From positions 1 through 32,182 of the forward strand of contig LQBH01000019.1 in the NCBI GenBank assembly GCA_002030015.1: DNA of 32,182 bases, written 5' to 3'. The position numbers were made by a program, and so were the translations under genes. Below are positions 382-11,526 of this stretch, one piece after another. The DNA is from a delta proteobacterium MLS_D (GTDB taxonomy: Bacteria; Desulfobacterota; Syntrophia; Syntrophales; UBA2210). The number at the start of each line of letters is the position of its first letter. Position 1 is the stretch's first letter. The notes under the pieces were generated by a model. The model was not told where the DNA came from. It worked only from the letters and a program-made list of their open reading frames with translations, and made no database searches.

Positions 382-2160
382 TCAGGCCGCGCCGCTGCCG
401 CCGATGCAATAATCGGCGAATCGACGGTTCATGTATTCCCTGACGTGGGCTTCCACTTCGTCGGTCCGGTCGAATTTCATAACCTGCCGCAGGAGTTTTT
501 TTGCCTCCGACAGCTTTGCTTCCCTGATAATGCGTTTCACCCGGGGGATTGCCAGCGGCGTCATGCTCAGTCCGTCGATTTCAAGACCCAACAGGAGAAT
601 CGTACAGAAAGGATCACCCGCCATCTCGCCGCACATGGCCACTTTTATGCCGGCCCGGTGACCCGCGTCGACCACATGCTTGATCAGGCGCAGTACCGCG
701 GGGTGGCAGGGTTTATAGAGATATCCCACGTGTTCGTTCACGCGGTCTATGGCCAGCGCGTACTGTATAAGGTCGTTGGTTCCGATACTGAAAAAATCGA
801 CTTCCTGCGCCAGCGCGTCGGCCATCATGACGGCGGACGGGACCTCGATCATGATCCCGAGCTTGATGTTTTCGTTGAAGGGAACGCCTTCGGAACGTAG
901 ATCCCCCTTCACTTTTTCCATGATATTCTTGACTTCCCTGATTTCCTCCACACCCGAGATCATGGGGATCATGATCCCGGTGTTGCCGAAAACACCGGCT
1001 CGAAAAATCCCGCGCAGTTGTACCTCGAAAATATCCCGTTCCCGCAGGCAATAGCGGATTGCCCGGAGTCCCATGGCAGGGTTCATTTCATCGGCGAGGT
1101 GGGGGTCTGATACAAATTTGTCGCCGCCGAGATCGAAGGTGCGTATAGTCGCCCACTTGATACGCTCATCCTCGACAACGACCCGGTAGTGGGCGAAATG
1201 TTCCTCTTCAGTGGGCGGTTGTTCCCGATTCACGTAAAAAAATTCCGTTCTGAAAAGGCCCACGCCGTTGGCGCCGTAGTAAACCGCTGCCGGAATTTCC
1301 TCGATAAATTCGATGTTGGCGCCCACTCCGACGCTGTGGTTGTCCCGCGTGACAGCCGGCAGGTGAGCGTTTTTCAGGAAATCCTCCTCCATGACGAAGT
1401 AATACCGTTTCTTTTCCTCGTATCGCCGGAGTGTTTCCTGATTGGGATTGATAATGACCATGCCCGAGGTGCCGTCGACGATAAGGACGTCGTCTTTGTC
1501 CACTTCCCCGGTAATGTTCTGAAGGCCGACAACGGCGGGAATACCGATGGATCGAGCCACGATCGCCGTATGGGAAGTTCTGCCTCCCACGTCGGTGGCA
1601 AAAGCGAAAACTTTTTTCACTTTCAGCTGCACCGTATCGGCGGGAGAAAGGTCGTGGGCGACGATTATAATCGCTTCGTTTACATCAGTCTCAGGTTCGG
1701 GCGCGACTCCCGACAAGTGACGATGTACACGCTGCACCACGGCTTCAACGTCCCGTATGCGTTCTTTCAGGTACGCATCTTCCATTTTCTTGAAGATGTC
1801 GCGGTATCGGGTGAGCGTTGACTCAAGGGCCCATTCGGCGTTGACGCCCTGGTCCCTGATAATATCAATGGTCTTTTGACTGAAACCGGTGTCCCCGAGA
1901 ATCATGCTGTGTACATCAATGATGAGCGGTCCGATGCCTTCAGTGTCGTCGAGCTTGCTTCGAATCTCGTCAAGCTCACGCCGGGCTTCCTCCAGCGACT
2001 GTATGAATCTCCGGATTTCCTGTTCCACGAGGGCCGGGTCGGAAAGATCGCGACGGGCTATTGTCACGGGTCGATGGTCGATCAGGCGCGCTTTCCCCGT
2101 GGCTATTCCCGGAGAAACACCGATTCCCTTCAATACAATGGTATGCTTCTGTTTCTGCAA
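382..2160 (-). CDS. ptsI: phosphoenolpyruvate-protein phosphotransferase, PTS enzyme I
   Basis: Enzyme I takes phosphate from PEP and passes it to HPr in the cytoplasm. The 592-residue protein has the full family layout. The N-terminal part contains the HPr-binding helical domain and the phosphohistidine loop GGRTSHTAIVAR, with His197 as the phosphorylated residue. The C-terminal PEP-binding barrel carries GLFRTEFFY, IMIPMISG, GTNDLIQYALAIDR and the MCGEMAGD motif with catalytic Cys510. The frame opens at TTG; no ATG fits the usual N terminus (VLKGIGVSPGIATGKA), so TTG is taken as the start. It lies 7 bases after the ptsH stop and is clearly cotranscribed with ptsH and the IID gene. With only a IID protein nearby, its phosphate acceptor beyond HPr is not visible here. 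Confidence 0.96.
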   Translation of the reverse strand: MQKQKHTIVLKGIGVSPGIATGKARLIDHRPVTIARRDLSDPALVEQEIRRFIQSLEEARRELDEIRSKLDDTEGIGPLIIDVHSMILGDTGFSQKTIDIIRDQGVNAEWALESTLTRYRDIFKKMEDAYLKERIRDVEAVVQRVHRHLSGVAPEPETDVNEAIIIVAHDLSPADTVQLKVKKVFAFATDVGGRTSHTAIVARSIGIPAVVGLQNITGEVDKDDVLIVDGTSGMVIINPNQETLRRYEEKKRYYFVMEEDFLKNAHLPAVTRDNHSVGVGANIEFIEEIPAAVYYGANGVGLFRTEFFYVNREQPPTEEEHFAHYRVVVEDERIKWATIRTFDLGGDKFVSDPHLADEMNPAMGLRAIRYCLRERDIFEVQLRGIFRAGVFGNTGIMIPMISGVEEIREVKNIMEKVKGDLRSEGVPFNENIKLGIMIEVPSAVMMADALAQEVDFFSIGTNDLIQYALAIDRVNEHVGYLYKPCHPAVLRLIKHVVDAGHRAGIKVAMCGEMAGDPFCTILLLGLEIDGLSMTPLAIPRVKRIIREAKLSEAKKLLRQVMKFDRTDEVEAHVREYMNRRFADYCIGGSGAA

Positions 2161-2167
2161 TGTTTTC

Positions 2168-2437
2168 TTACTCTTCGCCGAATTTCTCTTCGATCAGTTT
2201 TCCAAGTTCGTCCACCACGTTTTCCGCGTCTGTTCCCTCGGCGGTTACGGTGATGGCTCCCCCCTTGGGGCAATCAAGGGTCAGTATGCCAAGGATGCTT
2301 CGCCCGTCGACAACATTACCGTCACGTTCAAAGAACACCTCGGCCTCGAATCGTTTTACCACGTTTACCAGCATTACCGCCGCCCGGGCATGAAGCCCGA
2401 GTTCATTCTTGAGCGTGAAAGTTCTTATTATATGCAT
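2168..2437 (-). CDS. ptsH: phosphocarrier protein HPr
   Basis: This 89-residue protein is HPr, the small carrier that accepts phosphate from enzyme I. The active-site motif GLHARAA places the phosphorylated histidine at His16. A second site, GRSILGILTL with Ser47, matches the regulatory Ser-46 that HPr kinase/phosphorylase modifies in Gram-positives and many proteobacteria. This suggests, but does not prove, that an HprK is encoded elsewhere. The ATG lies 3 bases after the stop of the IID gene, which points to translational coupling, and ptsI follows 7 bases later. Confidence 0.95.
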   Translation of the reverse strand: MHIIRTFTLKNELGLHARAAVMLVNVVKRFEAEVFFERDGNVVDGRSILGILTLDCPKGGAITVTAEGTDAENVVDELGKLIEEKFGEE

Positions 2438-2440
2438 AAT

Positions 2441-3190
2441 CTACCAGGCCGCAAAAAACAAGAGGACGGTCATCCCGTATAAAATGACCGGCATGGGAAC
2501 CCGCTTTCGGACAAGCCAGAAACAGGCCAGGCAAAGAGCCGCCCCCCCGGGAGCTATGATGAGCTTGAATCCGGCTTCGCTCATGCCGCAGGGGGAAAGC
2601 GACAGCCATCCTCCGGCCGTGACGGCCAGAAGAACGATGGAAAGCCAGCGCAGCCTGTCCGCCGTTCCCGGCATGGCGAAACGTTTCAGAAAATCCGTGG
2701 CGCCCGTTCCGTCCCGATACGCCTCGGCGAACCCTTTCGTTCTTATGTATCCCTGTACAAGGTTGTATGCCACAAGCGCCGGAATAAGCGCCGCGAGGGA
2801 CGAACATCCGACGGCGGCGACGACTCCCACCGCCAGGACCGAGCACAACGGTCGAAGTGATCCCCAGAAGAAGGGGTCGCCGAGCGCGGCATACGGTCCC
2901 GCAAGGGATTGTTTCAGGTATTGCGCCTCGGCGCCCCGGCACGTCTCCTCGCGATTCAGGACGGAAGCGATAATCAGGCCGGCCATGTATACGTTGGTGC
3001 TGAAGGATTCCGTATGTCTCAGAAAAAAAGCGCTTTTATTTTCAACACGGGCTTGCGCGGGGGCGATCGCGTAAGCGAACCCGATATTCTGCATTTTTGA
3101 ATAATTCCAGGATGCGTTTATCAGGAGCGACCGAAAGAACACGCGCATGATCGTCCCGATATTGCGCCTGTCTGATTGCAGTGTTTTCAT
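2441..3190 (-). CDS. mannose-family PTS component IID (orphan)
   Basis: The 249-residue product matches IID proteins of the mannose/fructose/sorbose PTS family. It has an N-terminal RVFFRSLLINASWNYSKMQN block (the family's typical amphipathic start), a conserved GDPFFWGSLRP segment, and hydrophobic C-terminal stretches. IID normally forms the membrane channel complex together with IIC, fed by IIA and IIB. None of those partners is next to this gene: upstream lie about 360 non-coding bases and a divergent gene. The start could be the ATG at 3190 or the internal ATG at 3148, which begins MRVFFRSLL and looks more like the family start. A candidate promoter lies at 3230-3258, so this is probably the first gene of an IID-ptsH-ptsI transcript. 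Confidence 0.85.
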   Translation of the reverse strand: MKTLQSDRRNIGTIMRVFFRSLLINASWNYSKMQNIGFAYAIAPAQARVENKSAFFLRHTESFSTNVYMAGLIIASVLNREETCRGAEAQYLKQSLAGPYAALGDPFFWGSLRPLCSVLAVGVVAAVGCSSLAALIPALVAYNLVQGYIRTKGFAEAYRDGTGATDFLKRFAMPGTADRLRWLSIVLLAVTAGGWLSLSPCGMSEAGFKLIIAPGGAALCLACFWLVRKRVPMPVILYGMTVLLFFAAW

Positions 3191-3229
3191 AATCGTGCGG
3201 AAGCATACTCCTGTCTGAAAGCCTGCGAA

Positions 3230-3258
3230 TACCTAGCACTATTACCCAGTGAAGTCAA
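3230..3258 (-). promoter_or_regulatory. candidate sigma-70 promoter of the IID-ptsH-ptsI operon
   Basis: On the minus strand TTGACT (3258-3253) is followed after 17 bases by TAGGTA (3235-3230). The -35 is one base from consensus and the -10 is weak. It sits about 40 bases upstream of the IID ATG. The call is by eye only. Confidence 0.4.
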
Positions 3259-3402
3259 TTGAAAGGACACGGCTTTTCTTCCGAGGCCGTCACATGAGGA
3301 GACGGTGTATGCATGATGCCGCCGCCAACATCATCGGTACGAGAAAAGACGTTCGGTCGCCCTGGACGGAATGCAGATTTTTTCGGGTGTTGAAGTTTTT
3401 TA

Positions 3403-3431
3403 TTGACGGGCGTTAATTATTCTGATATTTC
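3403..3431 (+). promoter_or_regulatory. candidate promoter of the PxxKW-type gene
   Basis: TTGACG at 3403-3408 is followed after 16-17 bases by an AT-rich ATATTT/TATTTC at 3425-3431, with a T-rich tract just upstream. It would start a transcript near 3437, leaving a leader of about 115 bases before the coding region. The stretch 3241-3400 between the two divergent promoters holds no gene that I can recognise. Confidence 0.45.
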
Positions 3432-3480
3432 CGCGCCCGTTCAACCGACGGCCGGGAAGCTGTTCAGGGTGTTTTACGAT

Positions 3481-3518
3481 CCGGTGCGGTGGCAACTTAC
3501 GCGGCGCACCGGTTTTTT
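3481..3518 (+). terminator. intrinsic terminator inside the leader of the PxxKW-type gene (attenuator or end of a small RNA)
   Basis: CCGGTGCG (3481-3488) pairs perfectly with CGCACCGG (3505-3512) and is followed immediately by six T residues. This is a complete rho-independent terminator on the plus strand. It lies between the candidate promoter and the ATG at 3554, so transcripts must read through it or start after it to reach the gene. Confidence 0.75.
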
Positions 3519-3553
3519 ATGCAAAAAACATATGTAAGAGAGGAATGTGAAAG

Positions 3554-3838
3554 ATGATTTGTGAAACGGTAAAAGCGGGCAAGGAATGCGTTTTTATGAC
3601 CAAGAAGGGGTGCAGCTTCAACGGTGGTTCCTGTCATCCCATCGTCGAGCAGTGCAACGGCTGCGAGAGAACAATGGAATACGAAGGAGGCATCTATTGC
3701 ATGCTTTATCCCGATCCCGCGGCGAAGTGGGCTTATGGTCGCTGTTCAAGCGCGACGCACATGCAGCAGGATATCCAGTCCGTGACCCAGAAGGTCAATC
3801 CGCTCAAGGCATCGAAGCGAAAGTCAAAAGGTAAGTAA
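3554..3838 (+). CDS. PxxKW-type cysteine-rich small protein
   Basis: This 94-residue protein has eight cysteines, spaced mainly within the first 75 residues, and the signature PDPAAKW (P-x-x-K-W) followed by AYGRCSSATH. It matches a small cysteine-rich family known from deltaproteobacteria whose function is not established. The cysteine pattern (MTKKGCSFNGGSCHPIVEQC, then NGCERT, then GIYCMLYPDP) would suit binding of a metal or Fe-S cluster, which is inference. There is no signal peptide or membrane segment. The C terminus is a basic tail (KASKRKSKGK). AGGA sits 9 bases before the ATG. It is the only convincing plus-strand gene in the window and has its own promoter, an attenuator-like terminator in the leader and a strong terminator behind it. 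Confidence 0.85.
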   Translation: MICETVKAGKECVFMTKKGCSFNGGSCHPIVEQCNGCERTMEYEGGIYCMLYPDPAAKWAYGRCSSATHMQQDIQSVTQKVNPLKASKRKSKGK

Positions 3839-3867
3839 ACCGGGTAAATACCGTTTTCACGATATTG

Positions 3868-3898
3868 AAAAACCCGGCCGAGAACGGTCGGGTTTTTT
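3868..3898. terminator. bidirectional intrinsic terminator between the PxxKW gene and merR
   Basis: AACCCGGCCG (3871-3880) pairs with CGGTCGGGTT (3885-3894) around the loop AGAA, with one G-T wobble. A-rich sequence lies on the left and a run of T on the right. The symmetry lets it stop transcription from both converging genes. Confidence 0.85.
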
Positions 3899-3920
3899 GT
3901 CGCGAGAAGGAAACGCGGAA

Positions 3921-4259
3921 TCAGGCCAGTATGTCGCGCATGGCCTGCAACTCTTTCTTTATTTCATCCAGAAGATCTGCGGAAGAACTTTTTCCTTGTT
4001 CCGGCGGAGCGCTTTTGCCGCCGTAGAGCTTTTTTTTCGCTCCCGCTATGGTGAATTTGTCCCGGTAGAGCAGGTCTTTGATCGTGAGGAGTTCCTCAAT
4101 GTCGTGTTGCCGGTACAACCGCTGGTCCGACCTCGTCCGCATGGGGCGGACGGATTTAAACTCCGACTCCCAGTAGCGAATCACATAGGGCTCCACCCCG
4201 AGAATTCTGCCGACTTCCCCGATTCGAAAATAGACCTTGTCGGGAATCGTTACGCCCAA
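3921..4259 (-). CDS. MerR-family transcriptional regulator
   Basis: The 112-residue protein opens with a MerR-type winged helix-turn-helix: YFRIGEVGRILGVEPYVIRY and WESEF, followed by the wing segment with RSDQRLYRQHDIEELLTIKDL. The short C-terminal part (about residues 80-112) is a charged helix (LLDEIKKELQAMRDIL) suited to dimerisation. There is no cysteine set or ligand domain like those of metal-sensing MerR proteins. The position directly after ihfA is common in deltaproteobacteria. The frame opens at TTG, with a G-rich stretch upstream as a possible ribosome site. The target is unknown. It is the last gene of the thrS-ihfA transcript and ends at the bidirectional terminator. Confidence 0.88.
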   Translation of the reverse strand: MGVTIPDKVYFRIGEVGRILGVEPYVIRYWESEFKSVRPMRTRSDQRLYRQHDIEELLTIKDLLYRDKFTIAGAKKKLYGGKSAPPEQGKSSSADLLDEIKKELQAMRDILA

Positions 4260-4300
4260 TGGTGCGAAGCCCCCTTACAACAGCCGCTTTTCGTGTCAGG

Positions 4301-4576
4301 TTATTGGTTCAGCGAGTTTCTCAGGACCTGGCTCGCCTTGAAGGTCAGGACCCTTCGCCTTGAAATCTCGATGGTTTCACCTGTCTGCGGATTCCGTCCC
4401 TTGCGCGATCGCTTGTCGTTCACGACAAAATTGCCGAATCCCGAGATCTTGATTTTTTCTCCACGGGCGAGCGTTTCTTTCATGATGTCGAAGACTGACT
4501 CGACGATACGCGCCGAATCCCTCTTTGAAAAACCGAGCTTGTTGTAGACGTCCTGAATGATATCGGCTTTCGTCAT
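4301..4576 (-). CDS. ihfA: integration host factor subunit alpha
   Basis: This 91-residue member of the HU/IHF DNA-bending family has the IHF-alpha pattern: MTKADIIQDVYNKLGFSKRD at the start, then GEKIKISGFGNFVV and the DNA-contacting arm RKGRNPQTGETIEI, followed by RRVLTFKASQVLR. IHF is a heterodimer that bends DNA at specific sites. The partner ihfB is not in the window. Its place directly behind pheT is the same as in enterobacteria. AAGGAG lies 7 bases before the ATG. Confidence 0.95.
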   Translation of the reverse strand: MTKADIIQDVYNKLGFSKRDSARIVESVFDIMKETLARGEKIKISGFGNFVVNDKRSRKGRNPQTGETIEISRRRVLTFKASQVLRNSLNQ

Positions 4577-11497: not shown

Positions 11498-11526
11498 CCA
11501 GTAACAATAATCGGTCGTCCTGTCAA
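11498..11526 (-). promoter_or_regulatory. candidate sigma-70 promoter of tRNA-Val and the thrS operon
   Basis: On the minus strand a perfect TTGACA (11526-11521) is followed after 17 bases by TACTGG (11503-11498). A TTACTG at 16 bases is an alternative. The mature tRNA begins 34 bases further. No other strong promoter is seen before infC, so it may drive the translation operon as well. Confidence 0.55.

Follow-up and report, generated by a model that had tools for sequence, protein, structure and literature searches.

This locus raises the question of why a predicted intrinsic terminator stands between the promoter and the coding region of a gene for a small cysteine-rich protein that is without known function. 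The gene (3554..3838, + strand, with its ATG at 3554) lies in a window of 32,182 nucleotides, the whole stretch of DNA that was analysed, from the delta proteobacterium MLS_D. Its 94-residue product belongs to the PxxKW family of cysteine-rich proteins (NF038144; Pfam DUF6811) and passes both curated cut-offs, with 120.8 bits for NF038144 (cut-off 40) and 130.7 bits for PF20657 (cut-off 35.8). Eight cysteines are conserved in PxxKW proteins, seven of them invariant and the eighth almost so, together with a PDPxxKW motif and a basic tail. Of 155 genomes of the order, 136 carry exactly one copy of the gene, as do 16 of the 19 in the family. The AlphaFold model has a mean pLDDT of 68, and no useful match to PxxKW is found in the PDB by sequence or by fold (best fold E 8.4). 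The literature search likewise returned nothing on PxxKW, DUF6811 or transcription attenuation in Desulfobacterota.

The PxxKW gene stands alone, with a divergent PTS IID-HPr-EI cluster on one side and convergent MerR-like, IhfA and PheT genes on the other. At all loci where neighbours were found, the PTS IID/HPr/EI genes are upstream on the opposite strand and the MerR/IhfA/PheT genes are downstream, also on the opposite strand. This order of EI-HPr-IID (divergent), PxxKW and MerR-IhfA-PheT (convergent), which occupies 382-4576 of the window, is conserved across the order and was not found in loci outside it. Two further elements are apparent around the gene: a two-sided terminator-like hairpin (AAACCCG..CGGGTTT plus a T run, 3870..3898, no strand assigned) where the PxxKW and MerR-like genes converge, and a promoter-like site (TTGACT-N15-TGCTA, 3234..3258, - strand), an exact match to TTGACN15TGNTA, before the divergent PTS IID-like gene (2441-3190, - strand). 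The same promoter type precedes a tRNA gene within the window, at 11526(-).

The candidate PxxKW promoter is of the sigma-70 type (3403..3431, + strand), with a -35 element TTGACG (3403-3408), a 17-bp spacer, a -10 element TATTTC (3426-3431) and an extended TG (3423-3424) one base 5' of the -10. It is followed by a putative intrinsic terminator (3481..3518, + strand), in which CCGGTGCG (3481-3488) pairs with CGCACCGG (3505-3512) at 8/8 positions across a 16-nt loop, and the resulting G+C-rich hairpin is joined directly on its 3' side by six T residues (3513-3518). Thus, the perfect 8-bp stem and T6 tract described in the initial annotation are present as described. A simple consensus scan of the window listed neither element, because the -10 matches the consensus at only 3/6 positions and the loop exceeds the limit of 8 set for the scan. 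The 43-nt hairpin has a folding energy of -18.8 kcal/mol (z -3.17), with 1 of 200 shuffles as good, while the whole 91-nt leader is no more stable than its shuffles (z 0.19). With a start site some 7-9 nt after the -10, the promoter and terminator positions predict a leader RNA some 80 nt long (~3439-3518, + strand), and the ~80-base RNA proposed earlier is therefore a fair prediction. A probable ribosome-binding site, AGAGAGGA (3537..3544, + strand), is read from the sequence, is matched by strong purine-rich sites in homologues and is left uncovered by the terminator hairpin. A 12-codon frame begins directly after the T tract (3519-3557) and ends in a stop that overlaps the PxxKW start (ATGA); it also occurs in the closest relative, L079, and has no ribosome-binding site before it. 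In the genome of MLS_D, a hairpin of this kind lies within 130 nt upstream of only 2 of 49 genes (plain open reading frames of 400 kb plus the window) whose neighbour is divergent and at least 130 nt away, and PxxKW is one of the two. The leader used as a query against its own genome finds only itself convincingly (second match E 0.235).

For comparison, 184 upstream regions were oriented, and 167 non-redundant regions were kept after 17 near-duplicates were dropped. A TTGAC-type -35 spaced 16-19 bases from a TA-starting -10 is called upstream of 162 of the 167 homologues, leaving five without a promoter call, and an extended TG is seen in 141; these counts take the best site in each region, without a shuffle control. 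Identity in the promoter (0.67-0.90) exceeds that of DNA farther upstream (0.25-0.52), and thus the element is very likely the real promoter of the PxxKW gene. As called in these regions, the promoter is nearly universal within one order of bacteria. The homologues thereby bear out the 'good -35/-10 pair' of the initial annotation as a promoter, but 'good' overstates the -10 in the sequence of the window alone.

The terminator is distributed more narrowly. Under a fixed rule (a T tract directly preceded by a hairpin of at most -8 kcal/mol, with 40 dinucleotide shuffles per leader as control), 48 of 162 leaders have a terminator compared with 4.9 expected from shuffles. Members of the same genus do not count independently. 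By family, the figures are 15/16 leaders in the family of the window (f1; 0.72 expected), 17/18 in f13 (1.62 expected), 5/6 in f5, 3/3 in f12, 3/3 in f18, 2/3 in f15 and 1/1 in f4. The remaining families are at zero, including f14 (0/45), f9 (0/10), f16 (0/9), f19 (0/4), f17 (0/3), f10, f11, f20 and f3 (0/2 each), and f2, f6, f7 and f21 (0/1 each). Loci outside the order, a group known by named contigs, have a terminator in 2/29 cases, one of which (L073) is a copy of the f5 genome G124 and is tallied as outside although it is an f5 member. The absence of the hairpin from homologues, which the initial annotation would have taken as refutation, is therefore not seen in its own family, but conservation is not general, as f14, f9 and f16 have no such terminator. 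Several families have leaders of ~25-85 nt with no terminator. As the terminator is missing from families, and from nearly all outside loci, that keep the gene and promoter, as well as from f1g4 (L088) and f15g38 (L225) inside the terminator-bearing clade, it is dispensable for the gene; it is a feature of lineages and not a requirement of PxxKW. Some leaders depart from the common layout. In two f5 leaders (L174 and L187), a tandem pair of terminator-like hairpins with T tracts follows the promoter and precedes the gene. In L103 (genome G137, contig C64), ~300 nt separate the leader terminator (1579-1655) from the gene start (1954), compared with the usual ~45, and an apparent insertion carrying a further hairpin lies between them.

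Where the terminator occurs, its history appears to be one of retention through sequence change. In a FastTree phylogeny of 52 loci built from neighbouring-gene proteins (910 columns, with gaps), f1, f5, f12, f15 and f18 form one terminator-bearing clade (support 1.0), while f13 and f4 lie apart. The only clade members without a terminator are L088 and L225, joined by L214 when the threshold is applied. Scored by family label, the terminator changes 6 times on the tree, compared with a shuffled mean of 17.4 and minimum of 11; this count gives L214 its family label even though its own leader misses the threshold. Scoring each locus by threshold gives 7 changes, the shuffle control being for family labels only. 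The simplest reading is that an old terminator was kept in this clade while its letters changed. The hairpin arms of f1 leaders (14 leaders, L016 left out) pair better with their own partner (7.7/9 pairs, -11.9 kcal/mol) than when swapped between genera (5.0/9, -7.6 kcal/mol), which indicates compensatory change. For f13, all cells (100%) of the outer helix are paired, double changes occur in four pairs of the whole structure (shuffled mean 1.4; 7 of 500 shuffles as high), and identity is 0.77 in the hairpin, compared with 0.33 in the spacer after it and 0.57 at third codon positions. The stem arms have thus changed from one f1 genus to another and still pair. A small 5' hairpin noted by eye in f13 was rejected, as it is broken in L101, L128 and L137.

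The hairpin could in principle act as part of a general structured 5'UTR that tunes translation or mRNA decay, with the T tract incidental. Such a role would fit f14, a large sister family in which leaders of similar length (~100 nt) have a conserved hairpin without a T tract (e.g., GGCG..GTGGAA paired with TTCCGCAACGTC in L117 and L185), and it would fit L088 and L225, where hairpin-like stretches are seen by eye, also without T tracts. Shuffles of the f14 leaders are, however, just as stable (mean z -0.22), the ribosome-binding site is not covered, and the clade of the window keeps hairpin and T tract together far above shuffles, which makes this explanation quite unlikely for the leader studied here.

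The arrangement of the genes argues instead that the terminator acts on PxxKW itself. The upstream gene is divergent wherever it was found, so that none of the upstream genes found is transcribed in a direction that would need the terminator. Between terminator and gene, no promoter-like site beats shuffles in the 48 leaders (mean score 7.27 compared with 7.49 in shuffles and 10.6 for the conserved promoter). Because the terminator separates PxxKW from its own promoter, serves none of the upstream genes found and is followed by no second promoter, the gene should be supplied by read-through from the conserved promoter. The attenuation suggested at the outset is thus supported, on comparative sequence grounds, by the leader terminator of nearly all f1 genes, the divergent upstream gene and the single promoter.

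A terminated leader may also be a product in its own right. The promoter and terminator predict a discrete RNA of ~65-80 nt in several families, which could be a trans-acting small RNA (or sponge) for whose sake the terminator is kept, with PxxKW made by read-through. Small RNAs derived from 5'UTRs are documented in E. coli, including ChiZ and IspZ (PMC7815308), and the predicted PxxKW leader RNA resembles them as a short RNA from a 5'UTR, but differs in having no conserved seed. No conserved unpaired seed is apparent, as identity is 0.35 in the pre-terminator region of f1 and 0.43 in the spacer after the terminator, and the conserved part of the f13 leader is the hairpin, the loop of which varies. 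A model of the f13 leader (R1) has strong matches (E 8.6e-15 or better) in 16 f13 genomes, once per genome and all 16 upstream of PxxKW, and thus gives no sign of a shared regulon. Eight further matches (E 2e-4 to 0.1) include two upstream of PxxKW (G030 and G046) and six elsewhere. A small-RNA function is regarded as rather unlikely.

Control of the terminator by a riboswitch or other cis aptamer is less probable still. The position is that of terminator-type riboswitches, which likewise place a terminator between promoter and coding region, here before one gene. A GCGCCCC stretch just after the -10 could, by eye, pair with the 5' arm of the terminator in some f1 leaders. This GCGCCCC/GGGGCGC antiterminator (f1g5) was dropped, however, since the GCGCCCC arm reaches no further downstream than the probable start of transcription, is broken in the sister leaders L004, L007 and L021, and gains nothing in a duplex test. 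Pairing of the pre-terminator RNA with the 5' arm equals that of shuffles (44 of the 48 leaders tested; mean z -0.16; 1/44 with p <0.05). The pre-terminator RNA is also short (~13-42 nt in most leaders and ~15-18 nt in f13), differs between genera, and in L012 (genome G017) tolerates the tandem duplication of 18 nt directly ahead of the terminator. Unlike terminator-type riboswitches, which combine a conserved upstream aptamer with a mutually exclusive antiterminator, the PxxKW leader has no conserved aptamer-sized domain, no antiterminator beyond shuffles, no relevant Rfam match at gathering or loose thresholds and no strong f13-model copies elsewhere. The uncharacterised riboswitch entertained in the initial annotation is accordingly very unlikely; a protein-binding site in the leader, its other suggestion, may exist.

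Ribosome-dependent attenuation by way of a leader peptide is the most improbable of these explanations. Some f13 leaders (L105, L124 and L149) do have an AUG after a purine-rich stretch and a Trp-rich frame that runs through the terminator. Some such frame is present in 24 of 48 leaders, but the frames differ, the start codon is missing in the close relatives L127 and L090, the leader of the window has none, and none of the short frames that overlap the hairpin is conserved across the 48 leaders.

The conserved leader terminator before this uncharacterised gene thus appears to be real and is most likely an attenuator, a known type of control. In the proposed mechanism, the near-consensus vegetative promoter, ~80-nt leader, factor-independent terminator and PxxKW coding region would form one transcription unit, in which initiation is strong and most transcripts are predicted to stop at ~3518. 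As only polymerases that read through would make PxxKW mRNA, the terminator would serve as an attenuator and fix the share of polymerases that read through, a share that is probably regulated but may be constant. With no antiterminator fold and no leader peptide conserved, control by a trans-acting factor or the state of the polymerase is most likely; candidates would include a protein that binds RNA, one that melts hairpins in the manner of cold-shock proteins, and an elongation factor. We place the probability of this reading, in which PxxKW is fed by read-through of an attenuator under such control, at roughly 0.6.

Leader attenuators governed by a factor and not a ligand include the ampC attenuator of E. 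coli and cold-shock antitermination at metY-rpsO. The PxxKW leader resembles both in its promoter, short leader, intrinsic terminator and predicted expression via read-through, but it differs in gene and phylum, and ribosome binding in the leader of the ampC type is not seen. A bolder and unlikely version is a switch that senses shape: an attenuator kept across the clade through full turnover of the hairpin sequence, with neither aptamer, antiterminator nor leader peptide, whose terminator would be melted or stabilised by an unknown protein. That protein might be PxxKW, with its cysteines and basic tail, which would then couple its own production to a redox or metal signal; such autoregulation is only a possibility, because the fold could not be assigned. 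For the biology of these bacteria, a conserved attenuator before PxxKW suggests that the dose of the protein is controlled after initiation, and the condition under which read-through occurs would provide a handle on when the cell needs it.
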